Source: Clavelina lepadiformis
Taxonomy: Eukaryota > Chordata > Ascidiacea > Aplousobranchia > Clavelinidae
DNA length: 64,000 nucleotides
Direction: 5' to 3'
NCBI RefSeq assembly: GCF_947623445.1
Contig: NC_135246.1
Coordinates: 1,800,501 to 1,864,500, forward strand
This document shows positions 1-51,475 of the stretch, one piece after another. A program made the translations under genes and the position numbers. Every line of letters starts with the position of its first letter. Within the stretch, counting starts at the first letter, position 1. The notes under the pieces are model-generated. The model had not been told where the DNA came from and searched no databases. It was given only the letters and a program-made list of their open reading frames with translations.

Positions 1-130
1 CATACTAAATTGCCATGCAAAATTTCAGAGAGCCCCATAAAAGATTTTTTGAGCAAACAGTCTTTCAGTAAAATCACTGTATAAAAATACAAACAAAGAT
101 TTTATGGCATTTTTGGTGTTTAGCCCCTCC
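1..130. mobile_element. MITE in unit 0, right part only
   Basis: Right half of the L-type copy, cut by the window edge. Confidence 0.7.
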
Positions 131-529
131 TGAAATACAAATTTTCTTCTTACTCATGCCAAATTTTACGTACGTCTTGAAGGCGATCTTAAAATTTGAA
201 ACAATTCATTTTCTAGGATAATTCCAAGGCCAAAACACAAAATCGACCATATTGCCCCTGATTGGCTAAAACATATTTTAAAAGCCTTACGTAAGAGTCT
301 AACAAACTCAGAAAAGTTTAAGTTTTTCACAGATACGTTTCTTTCATACATAGCACTCGTAATATTATCTTTACGCGATGAGAACCTTTTCGTTCATTTA
401 CAGAACCACTGTTTTTATGTAAATATTTGAAGTTTCTTTTTTACACATTAAAACAAGTTTTACGGCCCAATGTGTGTACAAATTAATTAAGTCTGCAATG
501 TACCATGCACGAAACAGGAAGCTTTTAGC

Positions 530-830
530 AAAAAAGAGTTGAGTCCAGCTATATTAACCGGGCTACGACACTCGGCCTATTCACGGGTGCTGTCCCGCTA
601 CTGGTCAACGCGGGAACTTTTGGCTGCTCCCTTTCGGACCTGACACGGTTCGTTCCTCCTTAGACAACCTGGACACCTTAAGTTTCCATAAGACGACCAT
701 ATTGACGCTGAGCTTAGCGCGGACACCTGCTCGACATAGGTCCAAGTACCGCACATTTCCCAGTTTCAAGTTGTTCAACAACTCCAGCTTCCAAGTAACT
801 GGATTACAGGCGCGCGCCACAACGCCCGGC
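530..830 (-). ncRNA. 7SL: 7SL (SRP) RNA, unit 1, L subfamily
   Basis: L-type copy. It has a GAAA tetraloop in the SRP54-binding helix 8 and reads CTAAGGAGG in the S domain, closer to vertebrate 7SL than the M-type copies. A run of six T closes the gene. Confidence 0.9.
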
Positions 831-1018
831 GAGCCTACAGCCACTAAATGGAGCGTATAAACATCAAATTATTTTTGGAACGTCGAGATTTGATTTCCAT
901 ATACGAAACAAATAAATCCCAATTTGGTTCTTTGAAAACTGCCTCAATGTTTACAAATATACATTGTGTGAATAAACCAATGTTTTGCGTTTATTCTGCG
1001 AATGGATACATTCGAAAT

Positions 1019-1091
1019 CGTGCACGGCAGGACTCGAACCTGCAATCTTCTGATCCGAAGTCAGACGCGTTATCCATTAAGCTACGTGCCC
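1019..1091 (-). tRNA. trnR-ucg: tRNA-Arg(TCG), unit 1, diverged
   Basis: Anticodon TCG is intact. The acceptor stem has a G2/A71 mismatch and the D stem reads GCTT instead of GCGT, so this edge copy may be decaying. Confidence 0.8.
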
Positions 1092-1445
1092 TGTTAAAGA
1101 AAAGTATTCAACGTAACTTACATCAATACGAGATTGGTGTAATCTGAATCCGTTTGTGCAGCATCTCGTTCACATGGCAAATCCTTACAAGTAAAGGACT
1201 GACCTGAAAATTTCGTTAAATGCGTGAAAGATCATCCTGCACCAGCTATTTGCAAAAGTGCTCTTGAGTTCTGCTTAAACTAACAATTTCACCACATGGA
1301 AGAGATTGCCCGTGTCCGTCAAGTATAAACTTCATATGTCTCAAATCCTTTCTCGGTAAATGAAACTGGAAGATATTTGGATTTTAAAACTAAGCAAAGG
1401 TTTCTCAATAGTTTTGATTGTCTACGGATTCGTAGAAAGTTTGAA

Positions 1446-1518
1446 CGAGCACGCCAGGATTCGAACCTGGAATCTTCTGATCCGTAGTCAGACGCGTTAT
1501 CCATTGCGCCACGCACCC
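1446..1518 (-). tRNA. trnR-acg: tRNA-Arg(ACG), unit 1
   Basis: Complete cloverleaf with anticodon ACG. The acceptor 3' strand reads CGTGCTC, giving a G5-U68 wobble in place of the G-C pair seen elsewhere. Confidence 0.93.
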
Positions 1519-1854
1519 ACAAGTTTTTACAAATATAGATTTCGTAATGCGATTTAAATGAATTTACCTCAGTTAAAATTTTAAAACTTTAAATGCATTT
1601 GTACATACCAAAACTTTGGTTACGTCAAGGTGCTTGTTTTAGGAGATGTACGGTGTATATTTGAAGAAGGGGCAAGAGTCTGATTTTATGACCTAATGTG
1701 TAGTAAAATTACCAAGAATACAGTCGCGATTACTTTTTGCATACAAAGTATAGGTATGCCTGCGACTACACCATACTGGTATACGACAGATTTCACATAC
1801 CTCTATCTCCCGCTGTATATAGGATTAATATATAGATTGCATATTTTGACCTTA

Positions 1855-2283
1855 AGGGGGCGTCAAACACCAAAAACTAAGATCTTTATGAATTTGTTGT
1901 ACTCCTACGTAGGGCTTTAAAATAGCACTTTAGGCCAATCGAAAAACAGCATGTTTTCAATCCTGGGAACTACCCTTGCAGTTGGCGTGCTTCAATGTCC
2001 CAGGTCGCGTGCAGAATTAGGCTAAAAAGTAGTACGAATGTAGCCAAGATCGATTTTTAGACCAAAATTTTAGTGTTTATTTTGCGTCTTTGGAAAAAAC
2101 GTTTGAATCATGTTTTTTGATGGCTTTTTATGGAATGATATTGTAGTTCAAAGCATACTAAATTGCCATGCAAAATTTCAGAGAGCCCCATAAAAGATTT
2201 TTTGAGCAAACAGTCTTTCAGTAAAATCACTGTATAAAAATACAAACAAAGATTTTATGGCATTTTTGGTGTTTAGCCCCTCC
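1855..2283. mobile_element. MITE in unit 1 (L type)
   Basis: The best-preserved ends of all copies: left AGGGGGCGTCAAACACC, right (reverse strand) GGAGGGGCTAAACACC. Flanks are TTA on the left and TGA on the right. Confidence 0.7.
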
Positions 2284-2682
2284 TGAAATACAAATTTTCT
2301 TCTTACTCATGCCAAATTTTACGTACGTCTTGAAGGCGATCTTAAAATTTGAAACAATTCATTTTCTAGGATAATTCCAAGGCCAAAACACAAAATCGAC
2401 CATATTGCCCCTGATTGGCTAAAACATATTTTAAAAGCCTTACGTAAGAGTCTAACAAACTCAGAAAAGTTTAAGTTTTTCACAGATACGTTTCTTTCAT
2501 ACATAGCACTCGTAATATTATCTTTACGCGATGAGAACCTTTTCGTTCATTTACAGAACCACTGTTTTTATGTAAATATTTGAAGTTTCTTTTTTACACA
2601 TTAAAACAAGTTTTACGGCCCAATGTGTGTACAAACTAATTAAGTCAGCAGTGTACCATACACGAAACAGAATGGTTTTAAC

Positions 2683-2982
2683 AAAAGAGATTGAGTCCAA
2701 TTATATTAACCGGGCTACGAGACTCGGCCTATTCACGGGTGCTGTCCCGCTACTGGTCAACGCAGGAACTTTTGGCTGCTCCCTTACGGACCTGACCCGG
2801 TTCGTTCCTTCTTGGACAACCTGGACACCTTACGTTCCCATAAGACGGCCATATTGACGCTGAGCTTAGCGCGGACACCTGCTCGACATAGGTCCAAGTA
2901 CCCCACATTTCCCAGTTTCAAGTTGTTCAACAACTCCAGCTTCCAAGTAACTGGATTACAGGCGTGCGCCAAAACGCCCGGC
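2683..2982 (-). ncRNA. 7SL: 7SL RNA, unit 2
   Basis: First M-type copy, with a GTAA tetraloop. It carries T instead of G at about nucleotide 11 of the Alu domain (loop L2). It ends in T4. Confidence 0.9.
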
Positions 2983-3170
2983 GAGCATACAGCGACTAAA
3001 TGGAGCGTATAAACATCTAAATATTTTTGGAACGTCGAGATTTGATTTCAATTTACAAAACAAATAAATCTCAATTTGGTTCTATAAAAACTGCCTCAAA
3101 CTTTACAAACGTACATTGTGAGAATAAGCCAATAGTTGGCTTTTATACTGTGAGTTGATTCATTCGATAG

Positions 3171-3243
3171 CGAGCACGGCAGGACTCGAACCTGCAATCT
3201 TCTGATCCGAAGTCAGACGCGTTATCCATTACGCTACGTGCCC
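3171..3243 (-). tRNA. trnR-ucg: tRNA-Arg(TCG), unit 2
   Basis: Matches the consensus copy, with full A and B boxes. Confidence 0.96.
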
Positions 3244-3597
3244 TGTCAAGGAAAAGCAATCAGCGTAACTTCCATCAATACGAGGTTGGTGTAATCTAAT
3301 TTGATTGGTGGTGAACCTCGTTCACATGGCAAGTTCTTCCAAGTACAGGACTGACCTGAAAATATCGTTAAATGCATGACAGATCCCCCTGCACCAGTTA
3401 ATTGCAAAAGTGCTCCTGAGTCGTGCTTAAACTAACAATTTCTCCACATGGAACAGATTGCTCGTGTCCGTCAAATATAAACTTCATATGTCTCAAATCC
3501 TTTCTCGGTAAAATAAACTGGTAGATATTTGGATTTTAAAACTAAGCAAAAATATCTTATTAGCTTTGATTGTCTACGAATTCGTAAAAAGCTTGAA

Positions 3598-3670
3598 CGA
3601 GCGCGCCAGGATTCGAACTTGGAATCTTCTGATCCATAGTCAGACGCGTTATCCATTGCGCCACGCACCC
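3598..3670 (-). pseudogene. tRNA-Arg body with ATG anticodon, unit 2
   Basis: The anticodon loop reads CTATGGA, so the anticodon is ATG (His) on a tRNA-Arg(ACG) body. The T stem also has a G52 to A change that loses a pair and alters the B box. Most likely a decayed copy near the L/M subfamily boundary. Confidence 0.8.
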
Positions 3671-4008
3671 ACAAGTTTTTACAAAATGTCATTTACGTAA
3701 TCCCTGTAATAATGAATTTACCTCAGTTAAAATTTCAATATATTAAATGCATTTATACATAACAAAACATTAGTTACGTCAAGGTTCGTGTTTTAGGAGA
3801 TGTATTGTATATATTTGAAGAAGGGGCAAATGTCTGATTTTATCACTTAATTTGTAGTAACATTACCAAGAATACAGTCGCGATTACCTTTTGCATACAA
3901 AGTATAGGTATGCCTACGATTACACCATACTCGTATATGACAGAATTCACGTACCTCTAACTCCCGCTGTAAATAGGATTAATATATAGATTGGATAGTT
4001 TGCCCTTA

Positions 4009-4438
4009 AGAGGGGTCAAAGACCTAAAACTAAGATCTTTATGAATTTGTTGTACTCCTACGTAGGGCTTTAAAGAAGCTATTTAGACCAATCAGAGGGC
4101 AGCATGTTTTGTAGCCTAGAAATTGCAATAGCAGTTGGCGTGCTTTAATGTCCCGGGACTCGTGCAGAATTAGGCTAAAAATTAGCATGAAAATAGCTAA
4201 GATTGGGTTTTTTAAACCAAAACTTTTAGTGTATATTTTGCGCCTCTGTGAAAAATGTTTGAATCATGGTTTTTTGATGGCATTTTATGGAATGGTAGTT
4301 CAAAGCATACTGAACTGACATTCGAAATTTCAGAGAGCCCAATGGAGGAATTTTTGAGTAATCAGTTTTTAGTAAGCAAATTTACTGTATGAAAAAACAA
4401 ACAAAGATTTTATGGCATTTTTGGTGTTTGACCCCCCT
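4009..4438. mobile_element. MITE in unit 2
   Basis: M type; the right end has one extra C. Confidence 0.7.
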
Positions 4439-4837
4439 TGAAATACAAATTTTCGTTTTTCTCATGCCAAGTTTTACCTACATCTTGAACGCCATCTTAA
4501 AATTGGAAACACTTCATTTTCTAGGATAATTCCAAGGCCAAAACACAATACCGACCATGTTGGCACTGATTGGTGGAAACGTATTTTAAAAGCCCTACGT
4601 AAGAGTCTAACAAACTTAGAAAAGTTTAAGTTTTTCACAAACACGTTTCCTTCATACATAGCACTCGTAATATTATCTTTACGAGATGAGAAACTATTCG
4701 TACGTTTACAAAACTACTGCTTTTATGTTAATATTTGAAGTTTGATTTTTACGCATTAAAATAAGTTTTACGGCCCAATGTGTGTACAAACTAATTAAGT
4801 CAGCAGTGTACCATACACGAAACAGAATGGTTTTAAC

Positions 4838-5138
4838 AAAAGAGAGTTGAGTCCAATTATATTAACCGGGCTACGAGACTCGGCCTATTCACGGGTGCTG
4901 TCCGGCTACTGGTCAATGCAGGAACTCTTGGCTGCTCCCTTACGGACCTGACCCGGTTCGTTCCTTCTTGGACAACCTGGACACCTTACGTTCCCATAAG
5001 ACGGCCATATTGACGCTGAGCTTAGCGCGGACACCTGCTCGACATAGGTCCAAGTACCGCACATTTCCCAGTTTCAAGTTGTTCAACAACTCCAGCTTCC
5101 AAGTAACTGGATTACAGGCGTGCGCCACAACGCCCGGC
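4838..5138 (-). ncRNA. 7SL: 7SL RNA, unit 3
   Basis: M type, G at position 11, T4 stop. Confidence 0.92.
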
Positions 5139-5326
5139 GAGCATACAGCGACTAAATGGAGCGTATAAACATCTAAATATTTTTGGAACGTCGAGATTTG
5201 ATTTCAATTTACAAAATAAATAAATCTCAATTTGTTTCTATAAAAACTGCCTCAAACTTTACAAACGTACATTGTGAGAATAAGCCAATAGTTGGCTTTT
5301 ATACTGTGAGTTGATTCATTCGAAAG

Positions 5327-5399
5327 CGAGCACGGCAGGACTCGAACCTGCAATCTTCTGATCCGAAGTCAGACGCGTTATCCATTACGCTACGTGCCC
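5327..5399 (-). tRNA. trnR-ucg: tRNA-Arg(TCG), unit 3
   Basis: Consensus copy. Confidence 0.96.
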
Positions 5400-5753
5400 T
5401 GTCAAGGAAAAGCATTCAGCGTAACTTCCATCAATACGAGGTTGGTGTAATCTAATTTGATTGGTGGTGAACCTCGTTCACATGGCAAGTTCTTCCAAGT
5501 ACAGGACTGACCTGAAAATATCGTTAAATGCATGACAGATCCCCCTGCACCAGTTAATTGCAAAAGTGCTCCTGAGTCGTGCTTAAACTAACAATTTCAC
5601 CACATGGAACAGATTGCTCGTGTCCGTCAAATATAAACTTCATATGTCTCAAATCCTTTCTCGGTAAAATAAACTGGTAGATATTTGGATTTTAAAACTA
5701 AGCAAAAATATCTTATTAGTTTTGATTGTCTACGAATTCGTAAAAAGCTTGAA

Positions 5754-5826
5754 CGAGCGAGCCAGGATTCAAACCTGGATACTTCTGATCCGTAGTCAGA
5801 CGCGTTATCCATTGCGCCACGCACCC
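5754..5826 (-). pseudogene. tRNA-Arg(ACG)-like, unit 3, damaged
   Basis: Anticodon ACG is kept, but the T loop reads TTTGAAT. The invariant C56 (partner of G19 and part of the B box) is lost. The variable loop is altered, and the acceptor stem has the C6/U67 mismatch. Confidence 0.75.
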
Positions 5827-6164
5827 ACAAGTTTTTACAAAATGTCATTTACGTAATCCCTGTAATAATGAATTTACCTCAGTTAAAATTTCAATATATT
5901 AAATGCATTTATACATAACAAAACATTAGTTACGTCAAGGTTCGTGTTTTAGGAGATGTATTGTATATATTTGAAGAAGGGGCAAATGTCTGATTTTAAA
6001 ACGTAATTTGTAGTAACATTACCAAGAATACAGTCGCGATTACCTTTTGCATACAAAGTATAGGTATGCCTACGATTACACCATACTCGTATATGACAGA
6101 ATTCACGTACCTCTAACTCCCGCTGTAAATAGGATTATAATATAGATTGGATATTTTGCCCTTA

Positions 6165-6594
6165 ATAGGGGTCAAAGACCTAAAACTAAGATCTTTATGA
6201 ATTTGTTGTACTCCTACGTAGGGCTTTAAAGAAGCTATTTAGACCAATCAGAAGGCAGCATGTTTTGTAGCCTAGAAATTGCACTAGCAGTTGGCGTGCT
6301 TTAATGTCCCGGGACTCGTGCAGAATTAGGCTAAAAATTAGCATGAAAATAGCTAAGATTGGGTTTTCTAAACCAAAACTTTTAGTGTATATTTTGCGCC
6401 TCTGTGAAAAATGTTTGAATGATGGATTTTTGATGGCATTTTATGGAATGGTAGTTCAAAGCATAATGAACTGACATTCAAAATTTCAGAGAGCCCAATG
6501 GAGGAATTTTTGAGTAATCAGTTTTTAGTAAGCAAATTTACTGTATGAAAAAACAAACAAAGATTTTATGGCATTTTTGGATTTTGACCCCTCT
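6165..6594. mobile_element. MITE in unit 3
   Basis: Left end reads ATAGGGG; the right end has ATTTTGACCC instead of GTGTTTGACCC. Confidence 0.7.
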
Positions 6595-6993
6595 TGAAAT
6601 ACATATTTTCGTTTTTCTCATGCCAAGTTTAACCTACATCTTGAACGCCATCTTAAAAGTGGAAACACTTCATTTTCTAGGATAATTCCAAGGCCAAAAC
6701 ACAATACCGACCATGTTGGCACTGATTGGTGGAAACGTATTTTAAAAGCCCTACGTAAGAGTCTAACAAACTTAGAAAAGTTTAAGTTTTTCACAAACAC
6801 GTTTCCTTCATACATAGCACTCGTAATATTATCTTTACGCGATGAGAAACTTTTCGTACGTTTACAAAACTACTGCTTTTATGTTAATATTTGAAGTTTG
6901 ATTTTTACGCATTAAAATAAGTTTTACGGCCCAATTTGTGTACAAACTAATTAAGTCAGCAGTGTACCATACACGAAACAGAATGGTTTTAAC

Positions 6994-7294
6994 AAAAGAG
7001 AGTTGAGTCCAATTATATTAACCGGGCTACGAGACTCGGCTTATTCACGGGTGCTGTCCAGCTACTGGTCAACGCAGGAACTTTTGGCTGCTCCCTTACG
7101 GACCTGACCCGGTTCGTTCCTTCTTGGGCAACCTGGACACCTTACCTTCCCATAAGACGGCCATATTGACGCTGAGCTTAGCGCGGACACCTGCTCGACA
7201 TAGGTCCAAGTACCGCACATTTCCCAGTTTCAAGTTGTTCAACAACTCCAGCTTCCAAGTAACTGGATTACAGGCGTGCGCCAAAACGCCCGGC
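6994..7294 (-). ncRNA. 7SL: 7SL RNA, unit 4
   Basis: M type with T at position 11. It shares a C for T change in the S domain (GTTGCCC) with U6 only. Confidence 0.92.
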
Positions 7295-7482
7295 GAGCAT
7301 ACAGCGACTAAATGGAGCGTATAAACATCTAAATATTTTTGGAACGTCGAGATTTGATTTCAATTTACAAAACAAATAAATCTCAATTTGGTTCTATAAA
7401 AACTGCCTCAAACTTTACAAACATACATTGTGAGAATAAGCCAATAGTTGGCTTTTATACTGTGAGTTGATTCATTCGAAAG

Positions 7483-7555
7483 CGAGCACGGCAGGACTCG
7501 AACCTGCAATCTTCTGATTCGAAGTCAGACGCGTTATCCATTACGCTACGTGCCC
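7483..7555 (-). tRNA. trnR-ucg: tRNA-Arg(TCG), unit 4
   Basis: Anticodon loop CTTCGAA: base 37 is A instead of G. Otherwise consensus; the variant is shared with U6. Confidence 0.94.
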
Positions 7556-7909
7556 TGTCAAGGAAAAGCAATCAGCGTAACTTCCATCAATACGAGGTTG
7601 GTGTAATCTAATTTGATTGGTGGTGAACCTCGTTCACATGGCAAGTTCTTCCAAGTAGAGGACTGACCTGAAAATATCGTTAAATGCATGACAGATCCCC
7701 CTGCACCAGTTAATTGCAAAAGTGCTCCTGAGTCGTGCTTAAACTAACAATTTCACCACATGGAACAGATTGCTCGTGTCCGTCAAATATAAACTTCATA
7801 TGTCTCAAATCCTTTCTCGGTAAAATAAACTGGTAGATATTTGGATTTTAAAACTAAGCAAAAATATCTTATTAGCTTTGATTGTCTACGAATTCGTAAA
7901 AAGCTTGAA

Positions 7910-7982
7910 CGAGCGCGCCAGGATTCGAACCTGGAATCTTCTGATCCGTAGTCAGACGCGTTATCCATTGCGCCACGCACCC
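7910..7982 (-). tRNA. trnR-acg: tRNA-Arg(ACG), unit 4
   Basis: Fully paired acceptor stem (3' strand CGCGCTC). Confidence 0.97.
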
Positions 7983-8320
7983 ACAAGTTTTTACAAAATG
8001 TCATTTACGTAATCCCTGTAATAATGAATCTACCTCAGTTACAATTTCAATAAAATAAATGCATTTATACATAACAAAACATTAGTTACGTCAAGGTTCG
8101 TGTTTTAGGAGATGTATTGTATATATTTGAAGAAGGGGCAAATGTCTGATTTTATCACTTAATTTGTAGTAACATTACCAAGAATATAGTCGCGATTACC
8201 TTTTGCATACAAAGTATAGGTATGCCTACGATTACACCATACTCGTATATGACAGAATTCACGTACCTCTAACTCCCGCTGTAAATAGGATTAATATATA
8301 GATTGGATAGTTTGCCCTTA

Positions 8321-8750
8321 ATAGGGGTCAAAGACCTATAACTAAGATCTTTATGAATTTGTTGTACTCCTACGTAGGGCTTTAAAGAAGCTATTTAGAC
8401 CAATCAGAAAACAGCATGTTTTGTAGCCTAGAAATTGCAATAGCAGTTGGCGTGCTTTAATGTCCCGGGACTCGTGCAGAATTAGGCTAAAAATTAGCAT
8501 GAAAATAGCTAAGATTGTGTTTTTTAAACCAAAACTTTTAGTGTATATTTTGCGCCTCTGTGAAAAATGTTTGAATCATGTTTTTTTGATGGCATTTTAT
8601 GGAATGGTAGTTCAAAGCATACTGAACTGACATTCGAAATTTCAGAGAGCCCAATGGAGGAATTTTTGAGTAATCAGTTTTTAGTAAGCAAATTTACTGT
8701 ATGAAAAAACAAACAAAGATTTTATGGCATTTTTGGTGTTTGACCCCTCT
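8321..8750. mobile_element. MITE in unit 4
   Basis: Left end ATAGGGG. Confidence 0.7.
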
Positions 8751-28881: not shown

Positions 28882-28899
28882 CATCTAAATATTTTTGGA

Positions 28900-42401: not shown

Positions 42402-42474
42402 CGAGCGAGCCAGGATTCGAACCTGGAATCTTCTGATCCGTAGTCAGACGCGTTATCCATTGCGCCACGCACCC
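42402..42474 (-). tRNA. trnR-acg: tRNA-Arg(ACG), unit 20, acceptor mismatch
   Basis: C6/U67 type. Confidence 0.9.
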
Positions 42475-42812
42475 ACAAGTTTTTACAAAATGTCATTTAC
42501 GTAATCCCTGTAATAATGAATTTACCTCAGTTAAAATTTCAATATATTAAATGCATTTATACATAACAAAACATTAGTTACGTCAAGGTTCGTGTTTTAG
42601 GAGATGTATTGTATATATTTGAAGAAGGGGCAAATGTCTGATTTTATCACTTAATTTGTAGTAACATTACCAAGAATACAGTCGCGATTACCTTTTGCAT
42701 ACAAAGTATAGGTATGCCTACGATTACACCATACTCGTATATGACAGAATTCACGTACCTCTAACTCCCGCTGTAAATAGGATTAATATATAGATTGGAT
42801 AGTTTGCCCTTA

Positions 42813-43242
42813 AGAGGGGTCAAAGACCTAAAACTAAGATCTTTTTGAATTTGTTGTACTCCTACGTAGGGCTTTAAAGAAGCTATTTAGACCAATCAGA
42901 AAACAGCATGTTTTGTAGCCTAGAAATTGCAATAGCAGTTGGCGTGCTTTAATGTCCCGGGACTCGTGCAGAATTAGGCTAAAAATTAGCATGAAAATAG
43001 CTAAGATTGGGTTTTTTAAACCAAAACTTTTAGTGTATATTTTGCGCCTCTGTGAAAAATGTTTGAATCATGGTTTTTTGATGGCATTTTATGGAATGGT
43101 AGTTCAAAGCATACTGAACTGACATTCGAAATTTCAGAGAGCCCAATGGAGGAATTTTTGAGTAATCAGTTTTTAGTAAGCAAATTTACTGTATGAAAAA
43201 ACAAACAAAGATTTTATGGCATTTTTGGTGTTTGACCCCTCT
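42813..43242. mobile_element. MITE in unit 20
   Basis: M-type consensus. Confidence 0.7.
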
Positions 43243-43641
43243 TGAAATACAAATTTTCGTTTTTCTCATGCCAAGTTTTACCTACATCTTGAACGCCATC
43301 TTAAAATTGGAAACACTTCATTTTCTAGGATAATTCCAAGGCCAAAACACAATACCGACCATGTTGGCACTGATTGGTGGAAACGTATTTTAAAAGCCCT
43401 ACGTAAGAGTCTAACAAACTTAGAAAAGTTTAAGTTTTTCACAAACACGTTTCCTTCATACATAGCACTCGTAATATTATCTTTACGCGATGAGAAACTT
43501 TTCGTACGTTTACAAAACTACTGCTTTTATGTTAATATTTGAAGTTTGATTTTTACGCATTAAAATAAGTTTTACGGCCCAATGTGTGTACAAACTAATT
43601 AAGTCAGCAGTGTACCATACACGAAACAGAATGGTTTTAAC

Positions 43642-43942
43642 AAAAGAGAGTTGAGTCCAATTATATTAACCGGGCTACGAGACTCGGCCTATTCACGGGT
43701 GCTGTCCGGCTACTGGTCAACGCAGGAACTCTTGGCTGCTCCCTTACGGACCTGACCCGGTTCGTTCCTTCTTGGACAACCTGGACACCTTACGTTCCCA
43801 TAAGACGGCCATATTGACGCTGAGCTTAGCGCGGACACCTGCTCGACATAGGTCCAAGTACCCCACATTTCCCAGTTTCAAGTTGTTCAACAACTCCAGC
43901 TTCCAAGTAACTGGATTACAGGCGTGCGCCACAACGCCCGGC
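43642..43942 (-). ncRNA. 7SL: 7SL RNA, unit 21
   Basis: M type, G at position 11. Confidence 0.92.
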
Positions 43943-44130
43943 GAGCATACAGCGACTAAATGGAGCGTATAAACATCTAAATATTTTTGGAACGTCGAGA
44001 TTTGATTTCAATTTACAAAACAAATAAATCTCAATTTGGTTCTATAAAAACTGCCTCAAACTTTACAAACGTACATTGTGAGAATAAGCCAATAGTTGGC
44101 TTTTATACTGTGAGTTGATTCATTCGAAAG

Positions 44131-44203
44131 CGAGCACGGCAGGACTCGAACCTGCAATCTTCTGATCCGAAGTCAGACGCGTTATCCATTACGCTACGTG
44201 CCC
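44131..44203 (-). tRNA. trnR-ucg: tRNA-Arg(TCG), unit 21
   Basis: Consensus copy. Confidence 0.96.
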
Positions 44204-44557
44204 TGTCAAGGAAAAGCAATCAGCGTAACTTCCATCAATACGAGGTTGGTGTAATCTAATTTGATTGGTGGTGAACCTCGTTCACATGGCAAGTTCTTCC
44301 AAGTACAGGACTGACCTGAAAATATCGTTAAATGCATGACAGATCCCCCTGCACCAGTTAATTGCAAAAATGCTCCTGAGTCGTGCTTAAACTAACAATT
44401 TCACCACATGGAACAGATTGCTCGTGTCCGTCAAATATAAACTTCATATGTCTCAAATCCTTTCTCGGTAAAATAAACTGGTAGATATTTGGATTTTAAA
44501 ACTAAGCAAAAATATCTGATTAGTTTTGATTGTCTACGAATTCGTAAAAAGCTTGAA

Positions 44558-44630
44558 CGAGCGAGCCAGGATTCGAACCTGGAATCTTCTGATCCGTAGT
44601 CAGACGCGTTATCCATTGCGCCACGCACCC
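44558..44630 (-). tRNA. trnR-acg: tRNA-Arg(ACG), unit 21, acceptor mismatch
   Basis: C6/U67 type; the last copy of this class in the array. Confidence 0.9.
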
Positions 44631-44968
44631 ACAAGTTTTTACAAAATGTCATTTACGTAATCCCTGTAATAATGAATTTACCTCAGTTAAAATTTCAATA
44701 TATTAAATGCATTTATACATAACAAAACATTAGTTACGTCAAGGTTCGTGTTTTAGGAGATGTATTGTATATATTTGAAGAAGGGGCAAATGTCTGATTT
44801 TATCACTTAATTTGTAGTAACATTACCAAGAATACAGTCGCGATTACCTTTTGCATACAAAGTATAGGTATGCCTACGATTACACCATACTCGTATATGA
44901 CAGAATTCACGTACCTCTAACTCCCGCTGTAAATAGGATTAATATATAGATTGGATAGTTTGCCCTTA

Positions 44969-45398
44969 AGAGGGGTCAAAGACCTAAAACTAAGATCTTT
45001 TTGAATTTGTTGTACTCCTACGTAGGGCTTTAAAGAAGCTATTTAGACCAATCAGAAAACAGCATGTTTTGTAGCCTAGAAATTGCAATAGCAGTTGGCG
45101 TGCTTTAATGTCCCGGGACTCGTGCAGAATTAGGCTAAAAATTAGCATGAAAATAGCTAAGATTGGGTTTTTTAAACCAAAAATTTTAGTGTATATTTTG
45201 CGCCTCTGTGAAAAATGTTTGAATCATGGTTTTTTGATGGCATTTTATGGAATGGTAGTTCAAAGCATACTGAACTGACATTCGAAATTTCAGAGAGCCC
45301 AATGGAGGAATTTTTGAGTAATCAGTTTTTAGTAAGCAAATTTACTGTATGAAAAAACAAACAAAGATTTTATGGCATTTTTGGTGTTTGACCCCTCT
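44969..45398. mobile_element. MITE in unit 21 (last copy)
   Basis: M type. The next unit has the empty site. Confidence 0.7.
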
Positions 45399-45797
45399 TG
45401 AAATACAAATTTTCGTTTTTCTCATGCCAAGTTTTACCTACATCTTGAACGCCATCTTAAAATTGGAAACACTTCATTTTCTAGGATAATTCCAAGGCCA
45501 AAACACAATACCGACCATGTTGGCACTGATTGGTGGAAACGTATTTTAAAAGCCCTACGTAAGAGTCTAACAAACTTAGAAAAGTTTAAGTTTTTCACAA
45601 ACACGTTTCCTTCATACATAGCACTCGTAATATTATCTTTACGCGATGAGAAACTTTTCGTACGTTTACAAAACTACTGCTTTTATGTTAATATTTGAAG
45701 TTTGATTTTTACGCATTAAAATAAGTTTTACGGCCCAATTTGTGTACAAACTAATTAAGTCAGCAGTGTACCATACACGAAACAGAATGGTTTTAAC

Positions 45798-46098
45798 AAA
45801 AGAGAGTTGAGTCCAATTATATTAACCGGGCTACGAGACTCGGCCTATTCACGGGTGCTGTCCCGCTACTGGTCAACGCGGGAACTTTTGGCTGCTCCCT
45901 TTCGGACCTGACCCGGCTCGTTCCTCCTTAGACAACCTGGACACCTTAAGTTTCCATAAGACGGCCATATTGACGCTGAGCTTAGCGCGGACACCTGCTC
46001 GACATAGGTCCAAGTACCGCACATTTCCCAGTTTCAAGTTGTTCAACAACTCCAGCTTCCAAGTAACTGGATTACAGGCGCGCGCCACAACGCCCGGC
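45798..46098 (-). ncRNA. 7SL: 7SL RNA, unit 22, L-type sequence
   Basis: GAAA tetraloop and CTAAGGAGG as in U1, although the flanks on both sides are M type. The L-type tract runs from about 45879 to 46198. Confidence 0.9.
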
Positions 46099-46286
46099 GA
46101 GCCTACAGCCACTAAATGGAGCGTATAAACATCAAATTATTTTTGGAACGTCGAGATTTGATTTCCATATACGAAACAAATAAATCCCAATTTGGTTCTA
46201 TAAAAACTGCCTCAAACTTTACAAACGTACATTGTGAGAATAAGCCAATAGTTGGCTTTTATACTGTGAGTTGATTCATTCGAAAG

Positions 46287-46359
46287 CGAGCACGGCAGGA
46301 CTCGAACCTGCAATCTTCTGATCCGAAGTCAGACGCGTTATCCATTACGCTACGTGCCC
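46287..46359 (-). tRNA. trnR-ucg: tRNA-Arg(TCG), unit 22
   Basis: Consensus copy in M-type context. Confidence 0.96.
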
Positions 46360-46713
46360 TGTCAAGGAAAAGCAATCAGCGTAACTTCCATCAATACGAG
46401 GTTGGTGTAATCTAATTTGATTGGTGGTGAACCTCGTTCACATGGCAAGTTCTTCCAAGTACAGGACTGACCTGAAAATATCGTTAAATGCATGACAGAT
46501 CCCCCTGCACCAGTTAATTGCAAAAGTGCTCCTGAGTCGTGCTTAAACTAACAATTTCATAACATGGAAGTGATTGCTCTTGTCCGTCAAATATAAACTT
46601 CATATCTCTCAATTACTTTCTCGGTAAAATAAACTGGTAGATATTTGGATTTAAAGACTAAGCAAAGTTATCTTATTAGCTTTGATTGTCTACGAATTCG
46701 TAAAAAGTTTGAA

Positions 46714-46786
46714 CGAGCGCGCCAGTATTCGAACCTGGAATCTTCTGATCCGTATTCAGACGCGTTATCCATTGCGCCACGCACCC
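46714..46786 (-). pseudogene. tRNA-Arg(ACG)-like, unit 22, damaged
   Basis: The invariant C61 is A, breaking the G53-C61 pair and the B box. Base 32 of the anticodon loop is A. Anticodon ACG itself is intact. The gene lies in S-type sequence just past a subfamily switch. Confidence 0.75.
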
Positions 46787-47514
46787 ACAAGCTTTTATAA
46801 AATGTCGATTACGTAATCCAGTTCAAATAAATCTACCTCAGTTACAATTTCAATAAATTAAATGCATTTATACATAACAAAACTTTGGTTACGTCAAGGT
46901 GCGTGTTTTAGGAGATGTATATATTTGAAGAAGGTGCAAATGTCTCATTTTATCACTTAATGTGTAGTAAAATTACCAAGAATACAATCGCGATTACCTT
47001 TTGCATACAAAGTATAGGCATGCCTACGACTACACCATACTGGTATATGACAGAATTCACATACCTCTATCTCCCACTGTATATAGGGTTAGTATATAGA
47101 ATGGATATTTTGGCCATAAATACAAATTTTCTTCTTCCTCATGCCAAGTTTCACCTACATCTTGCACGCGATCTGGAAATTTGAAACACTTCATTTTCTA
47201 GGATAATTCCAAGGCCAAAACACAAAATCAACCATGTTGCCCCTGATTGGTGTAAACAGATTTTAAAAGCCCTACGTAAGAGTCAAACAAACTCAGAAAA
47301 GTGTAAGTTTTGCACAAATACGTTTCCTTCATACATAGCACTCGTAATATTATCTTTAAGCGATGAGAAACTTTTCGTACATTTACAGAACTACTGTATT
47401 TATGTTAATATTTGAAGTTTGATTTTTACGCATTAAAATAAGTTTTACGGCCCAAATTGTGTACAAACTAATTAAGTCAGCAGTGCACCATACACGAAAC
47501 AGAATGGTTTTAAC

Positions 47515-47815
47515 AAAAGAGAGTTGAGTCCTATTATATTAACCGGGCTACGAGACTCGGCCTATTCACGGGTGCTGTCCCGCTACTGGTCAACGCAGGA
47601 ACTTTTGGCTGCTCCCTTTCGGACCTGACACGGTTCGTTCCTTCTTGGACAACCTGGACACCTTACGTTCCCATAAGACGGCCATATTGACGCTGAGCTT
47701 AGCGCGGACACCTGCTCGACATAGGTCCAAGTACCGCACATTTCCCAGTTTCAAGTTGTTCAACAACTCCAGCTTCCAAGTAGCTGGATTACAGGCGCGC
47801 GCCACAACGCCCGGC
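47515..47815 (-). ncRNA. 7SL: 7SL RNA, unit 23, S subfamily
   Basis: GAAA tetraloop. The Alu domain reads GCCTGTAATCCAGCTACTTGG, with GCTAC as in vertebrate 7SL. T4 stop. Confidence 0.92.
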
Positions 47816-48003
47816 GAGCATACAGCGACTAAATCAAGTGTATAAACATCAAAAAATTTTTAGAACGTCGAGATTTGATTTCCATATACGAAACAAATAA
47901 ATCTCAATTTGATTCTTTAAAAACTCCCTCAAAGTTTACTCATGTACATTGTGCGAGTAAGCCAATGTTTGGCGTTTATACTGTGAGTGGTTACATTCGA
48001 AAG

Positions 48004-48076
48004 CGAGCACGGCAGGACTCGAACCTGCAATCTTCTGATCCGAAGTCAGACGCGTTATCCATTACGCTACGTGCCC
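48004..48076 (-). tRNA. trnR-ucg: tRNA-Arg(TCG), unit 23
   Basis: Consensus copy. Confidence 0.96.
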
Positions 48077-48430
48077 TGTCAAGGAAATGTAATCAACGTA
48101 ACTTCCATCAATACGAGATTGGTGTAATCTGAATCAGTTGGTGCAGCACCTCGTTCACATGGCAAATTCTTCCAAGTACAGGACTGACCTGAAAATTTCG
48201 TTGAATGCATGACAGATCCCCCTGCACCAGTTATTTGCAAAAGTGCTCCTGAATCTTGCTTAAACTAACAATTTCATAACATGGAAGAGATTGCTCGTGT
48301 CCGTCAAGTATAAACTTCATATGTCTCAAATCCTTACTCGGTAAAATAAACTGGTAGATACTTGGATTTTAACACTAAGCAAAATTATCTTATTAGCTTT
48401 GATTGTCTACGAATTCGTAAAAAGTTTGAA

Positions 48431-48503
48431 CGAGCGCGCCAGGATTCGAACCTGGAATCTTCTGATCCGTAGTCAGACGCGTTATCCATTGCGCCACGCA
48501 CCC
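48431..48503 (-). tRNA. trnR-acg: tRNA-Arg(ACG), unit 23
   Basis: Fully paired acceptor. Confidence 0.97.
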
Positions 48504-49231
48504 ACAAGCTTTTACAAAATGTCGATTACGTAATCCAGTTTAAATAAATTTACCTCAGTTACAATTTCAATAATTTAAATGCATTTATACATAACAAAAC
48601 GTTGGTTACGTCAAGGTGCGTGTTTTAGGAAATGTATATATTTGAAGAAGAGGCAAATGTCTCATTTTATCACTTAATGTGTAGTAAAATTACCAAGAAT
48701 ACAATCGCGATTACCTTTTGCATACAAAGTATAGGCATGCCTACGACTACACCATACTGGTATATGACAGAATTCACATACCTCTATCTCCCACTGTATA
48801 TAATGTTAGTATATAGAATGGATATTTTGGCCATAAATACAAATTTTCTTCTTCCTCATGCCAAGTTTCACCTACATCCTGCACGCGATCTGGAAATTTG
48901 AAACACTTCATTTTCTAGGATAATTCCAAGGCCAAAACACAAAATCAACCATGTTGCCCCTGATTGGTGTAAACAGATTTTAAAAGCTCTACGTAAGAGT
49001 CTAACAAACTCAAAAAAGTGTAAGTTTTTCACAAATACGTTTCCTTCATACATAGCACTCGTAATATTATCTTTAAGCGATGAGAAACTTTTCGTACATT
49101 TACAGAACTACTGTATTTATGTTAATATTTGAAGTTTGATTTTTACGCATTAAAATAAGTTTTACGGCCCAAATTGTGTACAAACTAATTAAGTCAGCAG
49201 TGCACCATACACGAAACAGAATGGTTTTAAC

Positions 49232-49532
49232 AAAAGAGAGTTGAGTCCAATTATATTAACCGGGCTACGAGACTCGGCCTATTCACGGGTGCTGTCCCGC
49301 TACTGGTCAACGCAGGAACTTTTGGCTGCTCCCTTTCGGACCTGACACGGTTCGTTCCTTCTTGGACAACCTGGACACCTTACGTTCCCATAAGACGGCC
49401 ATATTGACGCTGAGCTTAGCGCGGACACCTGCTCGACATAGGTCCAATTACCGCACATTTCCCAGTTTCAAGTTGTTCAACAACTCCAGCTTCCAAGTAG
49501 CTGGATTACAGGCGCGCGCCACAACGCCCGGC
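49232..49532 (-). ncRNA. 7SL: 7SL RNA, unit 24
   Basis: S type. The upstream TATA-like box is changed to TTGATA, so transcription may be reduced. Confidence 0.88.
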
Positions 49533-49720
49533 GAGCATACAGCGACTAAATCAAGTGTATCAACATCAAAAAATTTTTAGAACGTCGAGATTTGATTTCC
49601 ATATACGAAACAAATAAATCTCAATTTGATTCTTTAAAAACTCCCTCAAAGTTTACTCATGTACATTGTGCGAGTAAGCCAATGTTTGGCGTTTATACTG
49701 TGAGTGGTTACATTCGAAAG

Positions 49721-49793
49721 CGAGCACGGCAGGACTCGAACCTGCAATCTTCTGATCCGAAGTCAGACGCGTTATCCATTACGCTACGTGCCC
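49721..49793 (-). tRNA. trnR-ucg: tRNA-Arg(TCG), unit 24
   Basis: Consensus copy; the last complete one. Confidence 0.96.
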
Positions 49794-50147
49794 TGTCAAG
49801 GAAATGTAATCAACGTAACTTCCATCAATACGAGATTGGTGTAATCTGAATCAGTTGGTGCAGCACCTCGTTCACATGGCAAATCCTTCCAAGTACAGGA
49901 CTGACCTGAAAATTTCGTTGAATGCATGACAGATCCCCCTGCACCAGTTATTTGCAAAAGTGCTCCTGAATCTTGCTTAAACTAACAATTTCATAACATG
50001 GAAGTAATTGCTCGTGTCCGTCAAGTATAAACTTCATATGTCTCAAATCCTTACTCGGTAAAATAAACTGGTAGATACTTGGATTTTAACACTAAGCAAA
50101 ATTATCTTATTAGCTTTGATTGTCTACGAATTCGTAAAAAGTTTGAA

Positions 50148-50220
50148 CGAGCGCGCCAGGATTCGAACCTGGAATCTTCTGATCCGTAGTCAGACGCGTT
50201 ATCCATTGCGCCACGCACCC
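50148..50220 (-). tRNA. trnR-acg: tRNA-Arg(ACG), unit 24
   Basis: Fully paired acceptor; the last copy in the array. Confidence 0.97.
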
Positions 50221-50947
50221 ACAAGCTTTTACAAAATGTCGATTACGTAATCCAGTTTAAATAAATTTACCTCAGTTACAATTTCAATAATTTAAATGCA
50301 TTTATACATAACAAAACGTTGGTTACGTCAAGGTGCGTGTTTTAGGAGATGTATATATTTGAAGAAGAGGCAAATGTCTCATTTTATCACTTAATGTGTA
50401 GTAAAATTACCAAGAATACAATCGCGATTACCTTTTGCATACAAAGTATAGGCATGCTTACGACTACACCATACTGGTATATGACAGAATTCACATACCT
50501 TTATCTCCCGCTGTATATAGGGTTAGTATATAGAGTGGATATTTTGGCCTTAAATACAAATTTTCTTCTTTCTCATGCCAAGTTTCACCTACATCCTGTA
50601 CGCGATCTTGACATTTGAAACACTTCATTTTCTAGGATAATTCCAAGGCCAAAACACAATACCGACCATGTTGGCACTGATTGGTGTAAACAGATTTTAA
50701 AAGCCCTACGTAAGAGTCTAACAAACTCAGAAAAGTCTAAGTTTTTCACAAATACGTTTCCTTCATACATAGCACTCGTAATATTATCTTTACGCGATGA
50801 GAAACTTTTCGTACATTTACAGAACTACTGTATTTATGTTAATATTTGAAGCTTGTTTTTACGCATTAAAATAAGTTTTACGGCCCAATTTGTGTACAAT
50901 GTAAGTAAGTCAGCAATGTACCATACACGAAACAGGAAGCTTTTAAC

Positions 50948-51248
50948 AAGAAAGAGTTGTGTCCAACTATATTAACCGGGCTACGGCGCTCGGCCTATTC
51001 ACGTGTGCTGTCCCGCTACTGGACAACGCAGGAACTTTTGGCTGCTCCCTTTCGGACCTGACCCGGTTCGTTCCTTTTTGGACAACCTGGACACCTTACG
51101 TTCCCATAAGACGACCATATTGACGCTGAGCTTAGCGCGGACACCTGATGGACATAGGTCCAAGTACCGCACATTTCCCAGTTTCAAGTTTTTCAACAAC
51201 TCCAGCCTCCAAGTAGCTGGATTACAGGAGCGCGCCACAACGCCCGGC
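50948..51248 (-). ncRNA. 7SL: 7SL RNA, unit 25, diverged edge copy
   Basis: The most diverged copy. There are scattered changes in helix 5 and the Alu domain (GCGCGCTCCTG for GCGCGCGCCTG). The T4 stop is interrupted and reads CTTTCTTG. It may be a pseudogene. Confidence 0.75.
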
Positions 51249-51436
51249 GAGCATACAGCGACTAAATTGATTGTATAAACACCGAAATGTTTTTGGAACG
51301 TCGAGATTTGATTTCCATAAACGAAACAAATAAATCCCAATTTGATTCTTTAAAAAGTACTTCGAAGGTTACTAATTTACATTGTGTGCATAAGCCAATA
51401 TTTGGCTTTCATGCTGTGAGTGGATAGATACGAAAG

Positions 51437-51475
51437 CGAGCACGGCAGGACTCGAACCTGCAAACTTCTGATCCA
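51437..51475 (-). pseudogene. tRNA-Arg(TCG), unit 25, cut off at the array edge
   Basis: Only the 3' half (acceptor 3' strand, T arm and part of the anticodon arm) remains. Similarity stops at about 51475, where hAT sequence begins. Confidence 0.9.

Follow-up and report, generated by a model that had tools for sequence, protein, structure and literature searches.

In Entamoeba, most of the tRNA complement lies in arrays. The 3.18-kb tDNA repeat of the chordate Xenopus laevis is tandemly arrayed and, like the locus described here, has several tRNA genes in each unit, but it is not known to include an SRP RNA gene. In trypanosomatids, a divergent tRNA gene beside the 7SL gene lends it its promoter. 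Didemnum vexillum belongs to the same order as Clavelina.

The tandem tRNA arrays of Entamoeba are named in PMC11067881 and PMC2888827. In the cnidarian Hydractinia, rRNA, tRNA, U1, U2, U5, U6 and U3 genes occur as tens to hundreds of near-identical, evenly spaced copies (Schnitzler et al. 2024, PMC11067881), and for an independent draft of H. echinata 5S, SRP RNA and tRNA genes are said there to be tandemly arrayed. For an animal, tandem arrays are already in print for tRNA genes and, from one assembly, for SRP RNA genes. In the cited part of PMC5006418, the clustered share of tRNA genes is put at about 40% for both Ciona intestinalis and Botryllus schlosseri and at 90% for Ciona savignyi; most of the clustered genes are direct tandem copies. 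For the fragmented draft of D. vexillum it gives a single SRP RNA, with almost 99% of the tRNA genes unclustered, unlike the Clavelina array.

We analyzed a window of 64 kb from chromosome C7 of Clavelina lepadiformis, that is, the whole stretch of DNA presented here. Linkage of SRP RNA with two arginine tRNAs on one strand, as the initial annotation had proposed, is borne out: the window has 25 Metazoa_SRP genes (Rfam; full model coverage, positions 1-299 in 25/25; 218-240 bits against a gathering score of 70) and 48 tRNA genes (ARAGORN; 24 of TCG type and 24 of ACG type), all on the minus strand (Table 1). All 24 tRNA-TCG genes have the arginine anticodon TCG, and the ACG type comprises 22 genes with ACG, one with GCG and one with ATG (labelled His). 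In the direction of transcription, each unit reads SRP, spacer, tRNA(ACG), tRNA(TCG) and then the next SRP gene. The proposed unit of about 2.16 kb holds for 20 units of 2,155-2,156 bp but not for the last three complete ones (1,717, 1,717 and 1,716 bp), which are without a 439-bp insert. The array does occupy positions 1 to 51,475, but these are not its natural limits. At the right, the tRNA(TCG) upstream of the 25th SRP gene is broken near its anticodon and the array is interrupted, picking up again near C7:1867401; at the left, it goes on to about C7:1621660.

Table 1. Array features in the window (positions within the 64-kb stretch).
Feature	Position	Strand	Basis or remark
Window part of SRP RNA/tRNA-Arg tandem array, 25 SRP genes	1..51475	-	
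Unit switching from subfamily B (SRP gene and spacer start) to A (rest)	831..2982	-	diagnostic sites; crossover-like junction
20 subfamily B units, 2,155-2,156 bp each	2983..46098	-	
Three units of 1,717/1,717/1,716 bp without 439-bp insert	46099..51248	-	
439-bp insert, 22-bp inverted ends (MITE-like), one unit shown	44966..45404	no strand	
SRP RNA gene	533..830	-	Rfam
SRP RNA gene	2685..2982	-	Rfam
SRP RNA gene	4841..5138	-	Rfam
SRP RNA gene	6997..7294	-	Rfam
SRP RNA gene	9153..9450	-	Rfam
SRP RNA gene	11309..11606	-	Rfam
SRP RNA gene	13465..13762	-	Rfam
SRP RNA gene	15620..15917	-	Rfam
SRP RNA gene	17776..18073	-	Rfam
SRP RNA gene	19932..20229	-	Rfam
SRP RNA gene	22087..22384	-	Rfam
SRP RNA gene	24242..24539	-	Rfam
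SRP RNA gene	26397..26694	-	Rfam
SRP RNA gene	28553..28850	-	Rfam
SRP RNA gene	30709..31006	-	Rfam
SRP RNA gene	32865..33162	-	Rfam
SRP RNA gene	35021..35318	-	Rfam
SRP RNA gene	37177..37474	-	Rfam
SRP RNA gene	39333..39630	-	Rfam
SRP RNA gene	41489..41786	-	Rfam
SRP RNA gene	43645..43942	-	Rfam
SRP RNA gene, reference copy for identity ranking	45801..46098	-	Rfam
SRP RNA gene	47518..47815	-	Rfam
SRP RNA gene	49235..49532	-	Rfam
SRP RNA gene, last in window; least identical of the 25 to copy 45801-46098	50951..51248	-	Rfam
tRNA-Arg(TCG)	1019..1091	-	ARAGORN
tRNA-Arg(TCG)	3170..3243	-	ARAGORN
tRNA-Arg(TCG)	5326..5399	-	ARAGORN
tRNA-Arg(TCG)	7482..7555	-	ARAGORN
tRNA-Arg(TCG)	9638..9711	-	ARAGORN
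tRNA-Arg(TCG)	11794..11867	-	ARAGORN
tRNA-Arg(TCG)	13950..14023	-	ARAGORN
tRNA-Arg(TCG)	16105..16178	-	ARAGORN
tRNA-Arg(TCG)	18261..18334	-	ARAGORN
tRNA-Arg(TCG)	20417..20490	-	ARAGORN
tRNA-Arg(TCG)	22572..22645	-	ARAGORN
tRNA-Arg(TCG)	24727..24800	-	ARAGORN
tRNA-Arg(TCG)	26882..26955	-	ARAGORN
tRNA-Arg(TCG)	29038..29111	-	ARAGORN
tRNA-Arg(TCG)	31194..31267	-	ARAGORN
tRNA-Arg(TCG)	33350..33423	-	ARAGORN
tRNA-Arg(TCG)	35506..35579	-	ARAGORN
tRNA-Arg(TCG)	37662..37735	-	ARAGORN
tRNA-Arg(TCG)	39818..39891	-	ARAGORN
tRNA-Arg(TCG)	41974..42047	-	ARAGORN
tRNA-Arg(TCG)	44130..44203	-	ARAGORN
tRNA-Arg(TCG)	46286..46359	-	ARAGORN
tRNA-Arg(TCG)	48003..48076	-	ARAGORN
tRNA-Arg(TCG)	49720..49793	-	ARAGORN
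tRNA-Arg(ACG)	1445..1519	-	ARAGORN
ACG-type tRNA, anticodon ATG (labelled His)	3597..3671	-	ARAGORN
tRNA-Arg(ACG)	5753..5827	-	ARAGORN
tRNA-Arg(ACG)	7909..7983	-	ARAGORN
tRNA-Arg(ACG)	10065..10139	-	ARAGORN
tRNA-Arg(ACG)	12221..12295	-	ARAGORN
tRNA-Arg(ACG)	14377..14451	-	ARAGORN
tRNA-Arg(ACG)	16532..16606	-	ARAGORN
tRNA-Arg(ACG)	18688..18762	-	ARAGORN
tRNA-Arg(ACG)	20844..20918	-	ARAGORN
tRNA-Arg(ACG)	22999..23073	-	ARAGORN
tRNA-Arg(ACG)	25154..25228	-	ARAGORN
tRNA-Arg(ACG)	27309..27383	-	ARAGORN
tRNA-Arg(ACG)	29465..29539	-	ARAGORN
ACG-type tRNA, anticodon GCG	31621..31695	-	ARAGORN
tRNA-Arg(ACG)	33777..33851	-	ARAGORN
tRNA-Arg(ACG)	35933..36007	-	ARAGORN
tRNA-Arg(ACG)	38089..38163	-	ARAGORN
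tRNA-Arg(ACG)	40245..40319	-	ARAGORN
tRNA-Arg(ACG)	42401..42475	-	ARAGORN
tRNA-Arg(ACG)	44557..44631	-	ARAGORN
tRNA-Arg(ACG)	46713..46787	-	ARAGORN
tRNA-Arg(ACG)	48430..48504	-	ARAGORN
tRNA-Arg(ACG)	50147..50221	-	ARAGORN
tRNA-Arg(TCG) remnant, cut near anticodon	51436..51475	-	array interruption point

The 'at least 25' copies proposed at first proved to be a floor. The array extends over about 280 kb of C7 and has about 120 head-to-tail units of roughly 2.15 kb; its matches begin at C7:1621660 and, interrupted in places, reach at least C7:1904477. A 29-base SRP core pattern, allowing up to 3 mismatches, had 121 matches genome-wide, of which 112 were located in examined sequence: 111 in the array (101 in C7:1605001-1864500, 1 in C7:1866501-1868700 and 9 in C7:1884501-1904500) and a lone gene on C1. 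Most of the 9 remaining matches are probably in C7:1868701-1884500, because 7 tRNA-TCG matches are listed there. The tRNA-TCG pattern had 110 matches (109 forward, and 1 reverse on C6), with 106 placed in the array (99 in examined sequence plus those 7), 1 on C6 and 3 unplaced. For tRNA-ACG there were 111 (109 forward, and 2 reverse on C2 and C6), with 105 placed in the array (100 in examined sequence and 5 listed), 2 on C2 and C6 and 4 unplaced. Reversed-pattern controls gave no genome-wide matches for any of the three patterns, so chance is not at issue. These counts are of near-identical matches and leave out more divergent loci. Nearly all near-identical gene copies of SRP RNA and the two tRNA-Arg types sit in the array and, in gene number, the suggestion that one locus holds their dosage stands.

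SINEs usually derive from SRP and tRNA sequences, and a homologous tRNA pair is present on C6, as might be expected if the unit were a dispersed SINE-like or composite mobile element. We consider this scarcely credible. Dispersed copies were not found: among the 100 SRP core matches listed, 99 are in the one C7 array and 1 is on C1, all 121 matches have the same orientation (121 forward, 0 reverse), and the 5.5 kb around the C6 pair has no SRP match. Judging from its 22-bp inverted ends, the 439-bp insert in the spacer appears to be MITE-like; a 40-base piece of it recurs in 20 units of the window and also at 23 sites beyond the array, which between them include every one of C1-C9.

Across 104 aligned units, mean pairwise identity is 94.4%, and it is 98.4% for neighbouring units, in agreement with the proposal of a single homogenising locus. 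The units form several subfamilies, and from diagnostic sites the unit at 831..2982 has a crossover-like B/A junction. Within the array, units at least 99.8% identical are found 16-17 units (about 34 kb) apart, a pattern that false expansion during assembly could produce. Such an artefact is very improbable, however, given the several subfamilies, the scattered differences between repeated blocks, the unrelated DNA that breaks up the array, and an assembly built from PacBio Sequel II and Hi-C data with a QV of 67.4 (PMC10884593).

Other small-RNA genes are arrayed in the same genome, namely 5S, U2 and tRNA-Lys/Leu/Leu. The tRNA-Lys/Leu/Leu array (C9:4936555-5170352) resembles the SRP/tRNA-Arg array in having one-strand tandem units (about 1,180 bp) with three genes each, but these are tRNA genes only, and no SRP RNA was found in the 8 kb examined. 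U6 had only 5 matches above the cut-off. Set against Entamoeba, at least one tRNA here, tRNA-Gly(GCC), has dispersed copies, with 17 matches, 9 on C1, C5 and C6 and 8 on C7, 6 of the latter on one strand at spacings of 1.4 kb to 3.4 kb. With the evenly spaced, near-identical units of the SRP/tRNA-Arg array and several small-RNA classes arrayed in its genome, Clavelina is like Hydractinia, which is a cnidarian and not a chordate, and for which the cited section gives no shared SRP RNA and tRNA repeat unit (PMC11067881). No animal array that combines SRP RNA with tRNAs was known to the initial annotation. We likewise found no animal report of a joint SRP RNA-tRNA repeat unit in the literature searched.

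The genes are more conserved than the intergenic DNA, and because of this the array is probably a working supply and not junk. Diversity over the 104 units is 0.037 for SRP, 0.017 for tRNA-TCG and 0.026 for tRNA-ACG, against 0.057-0.065 for spacers and insert. Equal-length spacer windows as low as the gene numbered 0/930 for SRP, 0/1,496 for tRNA-TCG and 17/1,496 for tRNA-ACG, overlapping windows whose tests are not independent. The subfamily A and B consensus sequences differ at 13/298 SRP, 0/73 tRNA-TCG and 3/73 tRNA-ACG positions and at 217/1,700 positions of spacers and insert (Fisher p against the latter, 7e-6, 8e-5 and 0.03). Alternatively, unequal exchange might have amplified a mostly silent, satellite-like unit, most copies being repressed while the work falls to the C1 SRP gene and to the non-array tRNA-Arg genes, which lie on C2 and C6. 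The C1 gene is the best family match (273 bits vs 218-250 for array copies), and altered copies have been amplified, such as the anticodon mutants and the 17/104 copies in which the helix 8 region reads AGTAG instead of AGCAG. The cited part of PMC12308677 reports silence in most tissues for the Arabidopsis SYY cluster, where tRNA genes of two amino-acid types are tandemly repeated; it is a plant locus, and no SRP RNA is named there. We think a silent expansion unlikely, since genes vary less than spacers both over all units and between subfamilies, one tRNA-TCG consensus is common to all six unit groups compared (one group being a single unit), and tRNA-ACG is kept in the array but decayed in the homologous C6 pair.

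The array-type and C1-type SRP RNAs are 85% alike and have equal numbers of standard pairs. Of the 45 differences between the array consensus and the C1 gene, 35 are at paired sites, yet 98/120 modelled pairs remain standard in each of the two; when the differences were placed at random, 87.2 +- 2.6 pairs were standard, and none of 5,000 placements did as well. Part of this preservation could date from the C1 branch, and within the array alone the test is weak (A vs B, 243/5,000; A vs left block, 3,427/5,000). The helix 8 AGCAG motif and GNRA loop are present in 87/104 units.

Upstream of the SRP genes in the array are GTTTATA, which is TATA-like, and a GACGT box, at positions comparable with those in the C1 gene; at the 3' end, 103/104 units have a T run of at least 4. 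Conservation of the GACGT box within the array is unexceptional (rank 95 of 1,679 twelve-base spacer windows). Upstream sequences differ between the two classes; the C1 gene alone has the full TGACGTCAC, together with a TATA-like box, a point also in favor of the silent expansion considered above. It had been suggested that the tRNA supplies promoter function to 7SL, as in trypanosomatids. This finds no support: the tRNA-TCG gene lies 187 bp upstream of the SRP gene in the same direction, not divergent, and the SRP genes keep their own upstream boxes.

Frogs and fish have oocyte and somatic classes of 5S RNA. By analogy, the array might provide a stage- or tissue-specific pool of SRP RNA (and tRNA-Arg), for example in oocytes or buds, and the C1 gene another pool. 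The two SRP RNA classes, with their matched pairing and different upstream sequences, fit such a dual system, but the sequence itself points to no stage. We regard it as a lesser possibility; it is a special case of bulk dosage, and the likelihoods of the two overlap.

The consensus B box is present in 95/104 tRNA-ACG and 94/104 tRNA-TCG genes. Against a working array, a T run of 4 follows tRNA-ACG within 10 nt in only 25/104 units, and that of tRNA-TCG lies only 80-90 nt downstream, in 103/104. The commonest tRNA-ACG version in the window (12 exact matches there) appears, by reading, to carry an acceptor-stem mismatch. On C6, the homologous tRNA-Arg pair without SRP has an intact tRNA-TCG and the decayed tRNA-ACG, and its spacer keeps 179/259 ungapped positions of the array spacer (score 98 vs a highest of 44 in 500 shuffles).

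We infer that the array began with a tRNA-Arg(ACG)-(TCG) pair, of which the C6 pair would be a surviving relative, and that this pair came to adjoin a copy of the SRP gene that was already old. Unequal crossing-over and segmental duplication would then have amplified the joint unit together with the MITE-like insertion in its spacer, and concerted evolution within local blocks would keep the units similar. Each gene would be transcribed from a promoter of its own, the tRNAs through internal A and B boxes and SRP through the TATA-like and GACGT boxes. We favor, with fair confidence, a Pol III gene array that works as a bulk-dosage locus for SRP RNA and two tRNA-Arg types and is kept alike by concerted evolution; in Clavelina, it would probably serve to supply these RNAs in bulk.

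In the window, which spans C7:1800501-1864500, 25 SRP (7SL) RNA genes cover the whole Rfam model. They are accompanied by 48 tRNA genes, 24 for tRNA-Arg(TCG) and 24 of the ACG type (two of these with a changed anticodon), and every gene lies on the minus strand. This bears out the initial annotation, which described a unit of 7SL and two tRNA-Arg genes on one strand. In transcription order, the SRP RNA gene is followed after a long spacer by tRNA(ACG), 353 bp further by tRNA(TCG), and after another 187 bp by the next SRP RNA. The proposed unit length of ~2.16 kb holds for 20 window units (2,155-2,156 bp) and fails for the last three complete ones (1,716-1,717 bp), which lack a 439-bp insert. 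A 40-base piece of this insert has 44 genome matches at up to 3 mismatches: the 20 window units, one further array site and 23 elsewhere, these being spread over each of contigs C1 to C9. The presence of the piece both in the units and on all these contigs suggests that a dispersed MITE-like element entered the spacer and was then copied along with it. We also considered whether the unit holds a fourth RNA gene of known type, and rejected this; a loose Rfam scan of a single unit (E up to 1, window 43600-46400) returned SRP, tRNA and four weak rows from two families (Plastid-ycf2 and mir-1268), far under their gathering scores. The longest period in TRF is 500, and the array is thus not called by that program.

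Coordinates of the array, its neighbours and related loci (window positions, or genome contig and position)
Feature	Location	Strand	Description
Insert	window 44966-45404		MITE-like, 22-bp inverted ends; present in long units
Insert-piece match, array	C7:1871350		
Unit with A/B switch	window 831-2982		SRP gene and spacer start are B, remainder A
Open frame across array break	window 51377-51775		weak BED zinc-finger match, under Pfam cut-off
LTR-retrotransposon-like pieces	window 53625-58088	minus	zinc knuckle, reverse transcriptase, RNase H, integrase C-terminal, in separate frames
Open frame	window 59649-59975	minus	matches late part of galactose-3-O-sulfotransferase; perhaps exon or gene fragment
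Array stretch	C7:1605001-1864500		101 SRP copies; two adjacent pairs 7.5 and 12.6 kb apart
Array stretch	C7:1884501-1904500		9 full SRP copies
Lone SRP RNA gene	C1:13527165-13527463		
tRNA-Arg(ACG)-(TCG) pair outside array	C6:5789351-5789867		decayed ACG gene upstream of TCG gene, same direction
Intact tRNA-TCG of that pair	C6:5789795		
tRNA-ACG pattern match	C6:13593273	reverse	identical to a reverse match on C2
tRNA-Lys(TTT), tRNA-Leu(TAG), tRNA-Leu(AAG) array	C9:4936555-5170352		units of ~1,180 bp
8-kb piece of that array	C9:5096001-5104000		
5S genes, close set	C4:18170001-18178000		~230 bp apart
5S genes, whole span	C4:14.38-18.53 Mb	both	some several Mb off
U2 snRNA tandem genes	C4:17035987-17112588		mostly 776-bp spacing (at least 46 matches)
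U6 matches	C4:18.57-18.59 Mb		5 above cut-off, clustered; ~40 kb from nearest 5S gene listed

The array extends well beyond the window. A search of 209.06 Mb in 95 contigs with a 29-base core of the SRP gene gives 121 matches at up to 3 mismatches, in a single orientation, so that the earlier figure of at least 25 copies, which the 25 genes in the window already satisfy, is far exceeded. Among the 100 core matches listed, 99 are on C7 and one is on C1. Retrieved sequence confirms 112 of the 121, with a sequence-level view that excludes C7:1868701-1884500 and C7 past 1904500. Each of the two tRNA patterns matches 109 times in forward orientation, and 106 of these matches for tRNA-TCG and 105 for tRNA-ACG could be assigned to the array. 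In reverse orientation tRNA-TCG matches once, on C6, and tRNA-ACG twice, on C2 and C6. The unplaced matches (9 SRP, 3 tRNA-TCG and 4 tRNA-ACG) could sit outside the array, and all of these counts are of near matches, more divergent genes of these kinds being outside their scope. The initial annotation had asked about other 7SL and tRNA-Arg loci: near matches are mostly in the array, with a lone SRP RNA gene on C1 and tRNA-Arg genes on C2 and C6. That so long a repeat might be an artefact of assembly is argued against by the data behind the genome, which its report gives as PacBio Sequel II and Hi-C with a QV of 67.4 (PMC10884593). After window position 51,475 the array is interrupted. It breaks inside a tRNA-TCG and picks up again ~15.4 kb further on, within a spacer belonging to an insert-less unit, and we therefore dropped the idea of one clean insertion at this point.

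For comparison of units, we disregarded SRP hits of 250 bp or less, took the 108 intervals between the remaining hits and removed the 4 longer than 2,300 bp. The resulting 104 aligned units have a mean pairwise identity of 94.4%, and neighbours are 98.4% identical. The units fall into blocks (a core, A; B; left; and right), plus a few insert-less units at block margins. Block B makes up most of the window and is 88-90% identical to the overall consensus. One window unit passes from B to A in a single clean, crossover-like switch, and 14 pairs of core units that lie 16 or 17 units (~34 kb) apart are at least 99.8% alike. Judged from this alignment, the block pattern is that of locally acting unequal exchange, and the 16/17-unit recurrence is the mark of a segmental duplication.

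Within this homogenising background, the genes vary less than the sequence between them. Among the 104 units, diversity amounts to 0.037 for SRP, 0.017 for tRNA-TCG and 0.026 for tRNA-ACG, versus 0.057-0.065 for the spacers and insert. Equal-length spacer windows, which overlap and are therefore not independent tests, were as low in 0 of 930 cases for SRP, 0 of 1,496 for tRNA-TCG and 17 of 1,496 for tRNA-ACG. The A and B consensus sequences differ at 13 of 298 positions in SRP, 0 of 73 in tRNA-TCG and 3 of 73 in tRNA-ACG, versus 217 of 1,700 in the spacers and insert. We conclude that this is a real and probably working multi-gene Pol III array.

Several features argue against uniform function of all copies. 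The SRP AGCAG motif of helix 8 contacts SRP54, and 17 of the 104 copies have AGTAG instead. A relaxed count finds the helix 8 motif in 87 of 104 copies; a strict regular expression, too strict for a GTAA loop, gave 55 (39 with all five motif expressions). Anticodon changes cause ARAGORN to give odd labels to 7 of 200 array tRNAs in a 259.5-kb stretch (3 Cys, 2 SeC, 1 His and 1 Arg-GCG), and the commonest tRNA-ACG version in the window has an apparent acceptor-stem mismatch (54 versus 60 bits). A run of at least four T's is present at the SRP 3' end in 103 of 104 units and within 10 nt of tRNA-ACG in 25 of 104; for tRNA-TCG such a run occurs only 80-90 nt downstream, in 103 of 104.

7SL genes use upstream promoter elements. 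Upstream of the lone C1 SRP gene are TGACGTCAC and GTTTATATA, including a TATA-like box, and the array SRP genes have GACGT and GTTTATA at comparable positions. The idea that selection within the array targets the GACGT box at -55 in particular was rejected, as the box ranks only 95 of 1,679 windows. The initial annotation had also hinted that a tRNA might lend its promoter to SRP in the manner of trypanosomatids. The Clavelina array differs from trypanosomatid 7SL in the orientation of its tRNAs and in having SRP genes with upstream boxes of their own, and both differences speak against such borrowing. The simplest reading of these sequences is that each unit would have three separate Pol III promoters.

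A related tRNA pair lies outside the array, on C6. The tRNA-TCG there might be taken as solitary, but next to it lies a tRNA-ACG that has decayed, and the spacer between the two is homologous. The decayed gene matches at 54 of 66 aligned positions, and 2 bases are inserted in its anticodon region. The start-to-start distance from ACG to TCG is 444 bp, versus 427 in the array. The spacers between the tRNAs agree at 179 of 259 ungapped positions with a score of 98 (maximum of 500 shuffles, 44), by which the C6 and array spacers are judged homologous. Beyond the pair, the flanking sequence has no likeness to the array (88 and 63 of 500 shuffles were equally good), and no SRP match was found in the 5.5 kb retrieved. 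Thus, the two tRNA genes also occur together without SRP, and the C6 pair could be either the earlier arrangement or a copy derived from the array. Decay of the ACG gene on C6 and its retention in the array fit selection in the array.

Other small RNA genes of this genome are also arranged in tandem. 5S, U2 and tRNA-Lys/Leu/Leu genes all form arrays, and the joint SRP-tRNA array is thus an unusual case of a general tendency in this genome. Some Leu copies in the C9 array are low-scoring (36-45 bits), and tRNA-Gly(GCC) is partly dispersed in the genome. Family searches of the genome return best candidates only, so their counts are floors (26 SRP, 63 tRNA, 47 5S, 46 U2 and 7 U6). In other animals, many small-RNA genes of Hydractinia genomes are described as lying in tandem arrays, and the same article states that an independent H. 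echinata assembly has tandem arrays of 5S, SRP RNA and tRNA (PMC11067881). An account of tunicates describes clustering of tRNA genes and gives a single SRP RNA for Didemnum vexillum (PMC5006418), and a survey of eukaryotic tRNA organisation leaves 7SL and SRP unmentioned in its main text (PMC2888827). The initial annotation knew of no animal array joining SRP RNA to tRNAs, and in the open literature, supplements aside, we likewise found no statement of the two in one animal repeat unit. Tandem small-RNA arrays being already known, what appears to be new is the joint SRP-tRNA unit in an animal.

The array SRP genes and the lone C1 gene, which has no tRNA found within the 10 kb retrieved around it, form two distinct classes. 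The array consensus differs from the C1 gene at 45 positions (~15% of the sequence), 35 of them at paired sites, and 98 of 120 pairs are standard in both. The same changes placed at random leave 87.2 +- 2.6 standard pairs, and 98 was reached in 0 of 5,000 trials. When five unit groups were each compared with C1 in this way, 2 of 5,000 trials did as well for the left block and 0 of 5,000 for each of the other four; within the array the test is weak (A versus B, 243 of 5,000; A versus left, 3,427 of 5,000). At the 45 differing sites the Rfam consensus is matched by the C1 gene at 22, by the array at 12 and by neither at 11, suggesting that the array class has drifted more, yet that part of the change lies off its branch.

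The usual view is that SRP RNA has one or a few functional gene copies and that tRNA-Arg dosage is distributed across many loci. With both in one homogenising chordate locus, SRP RNA copy number and arginine decoding would shift together. We consider it possible, if rather unlikely, that the array class (~120 genes, tied to tRNA-Arg) and the lone C1 class serve different stages or tissues. If so, the array would be a coupled supply of RNAs for secretion and arginine decoding, perhaps in oocytes, buds or tunic-secreting cells, and such stage- or place-specific use of the two classes would raise the interest of the locus. Since they differ at ~45 positions, ordinary RNA reads can separate the classes. 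Whether tandem RNA-gene arrays are a working stock, a stage-specific stock or silent satellites thus becomes a testable question.
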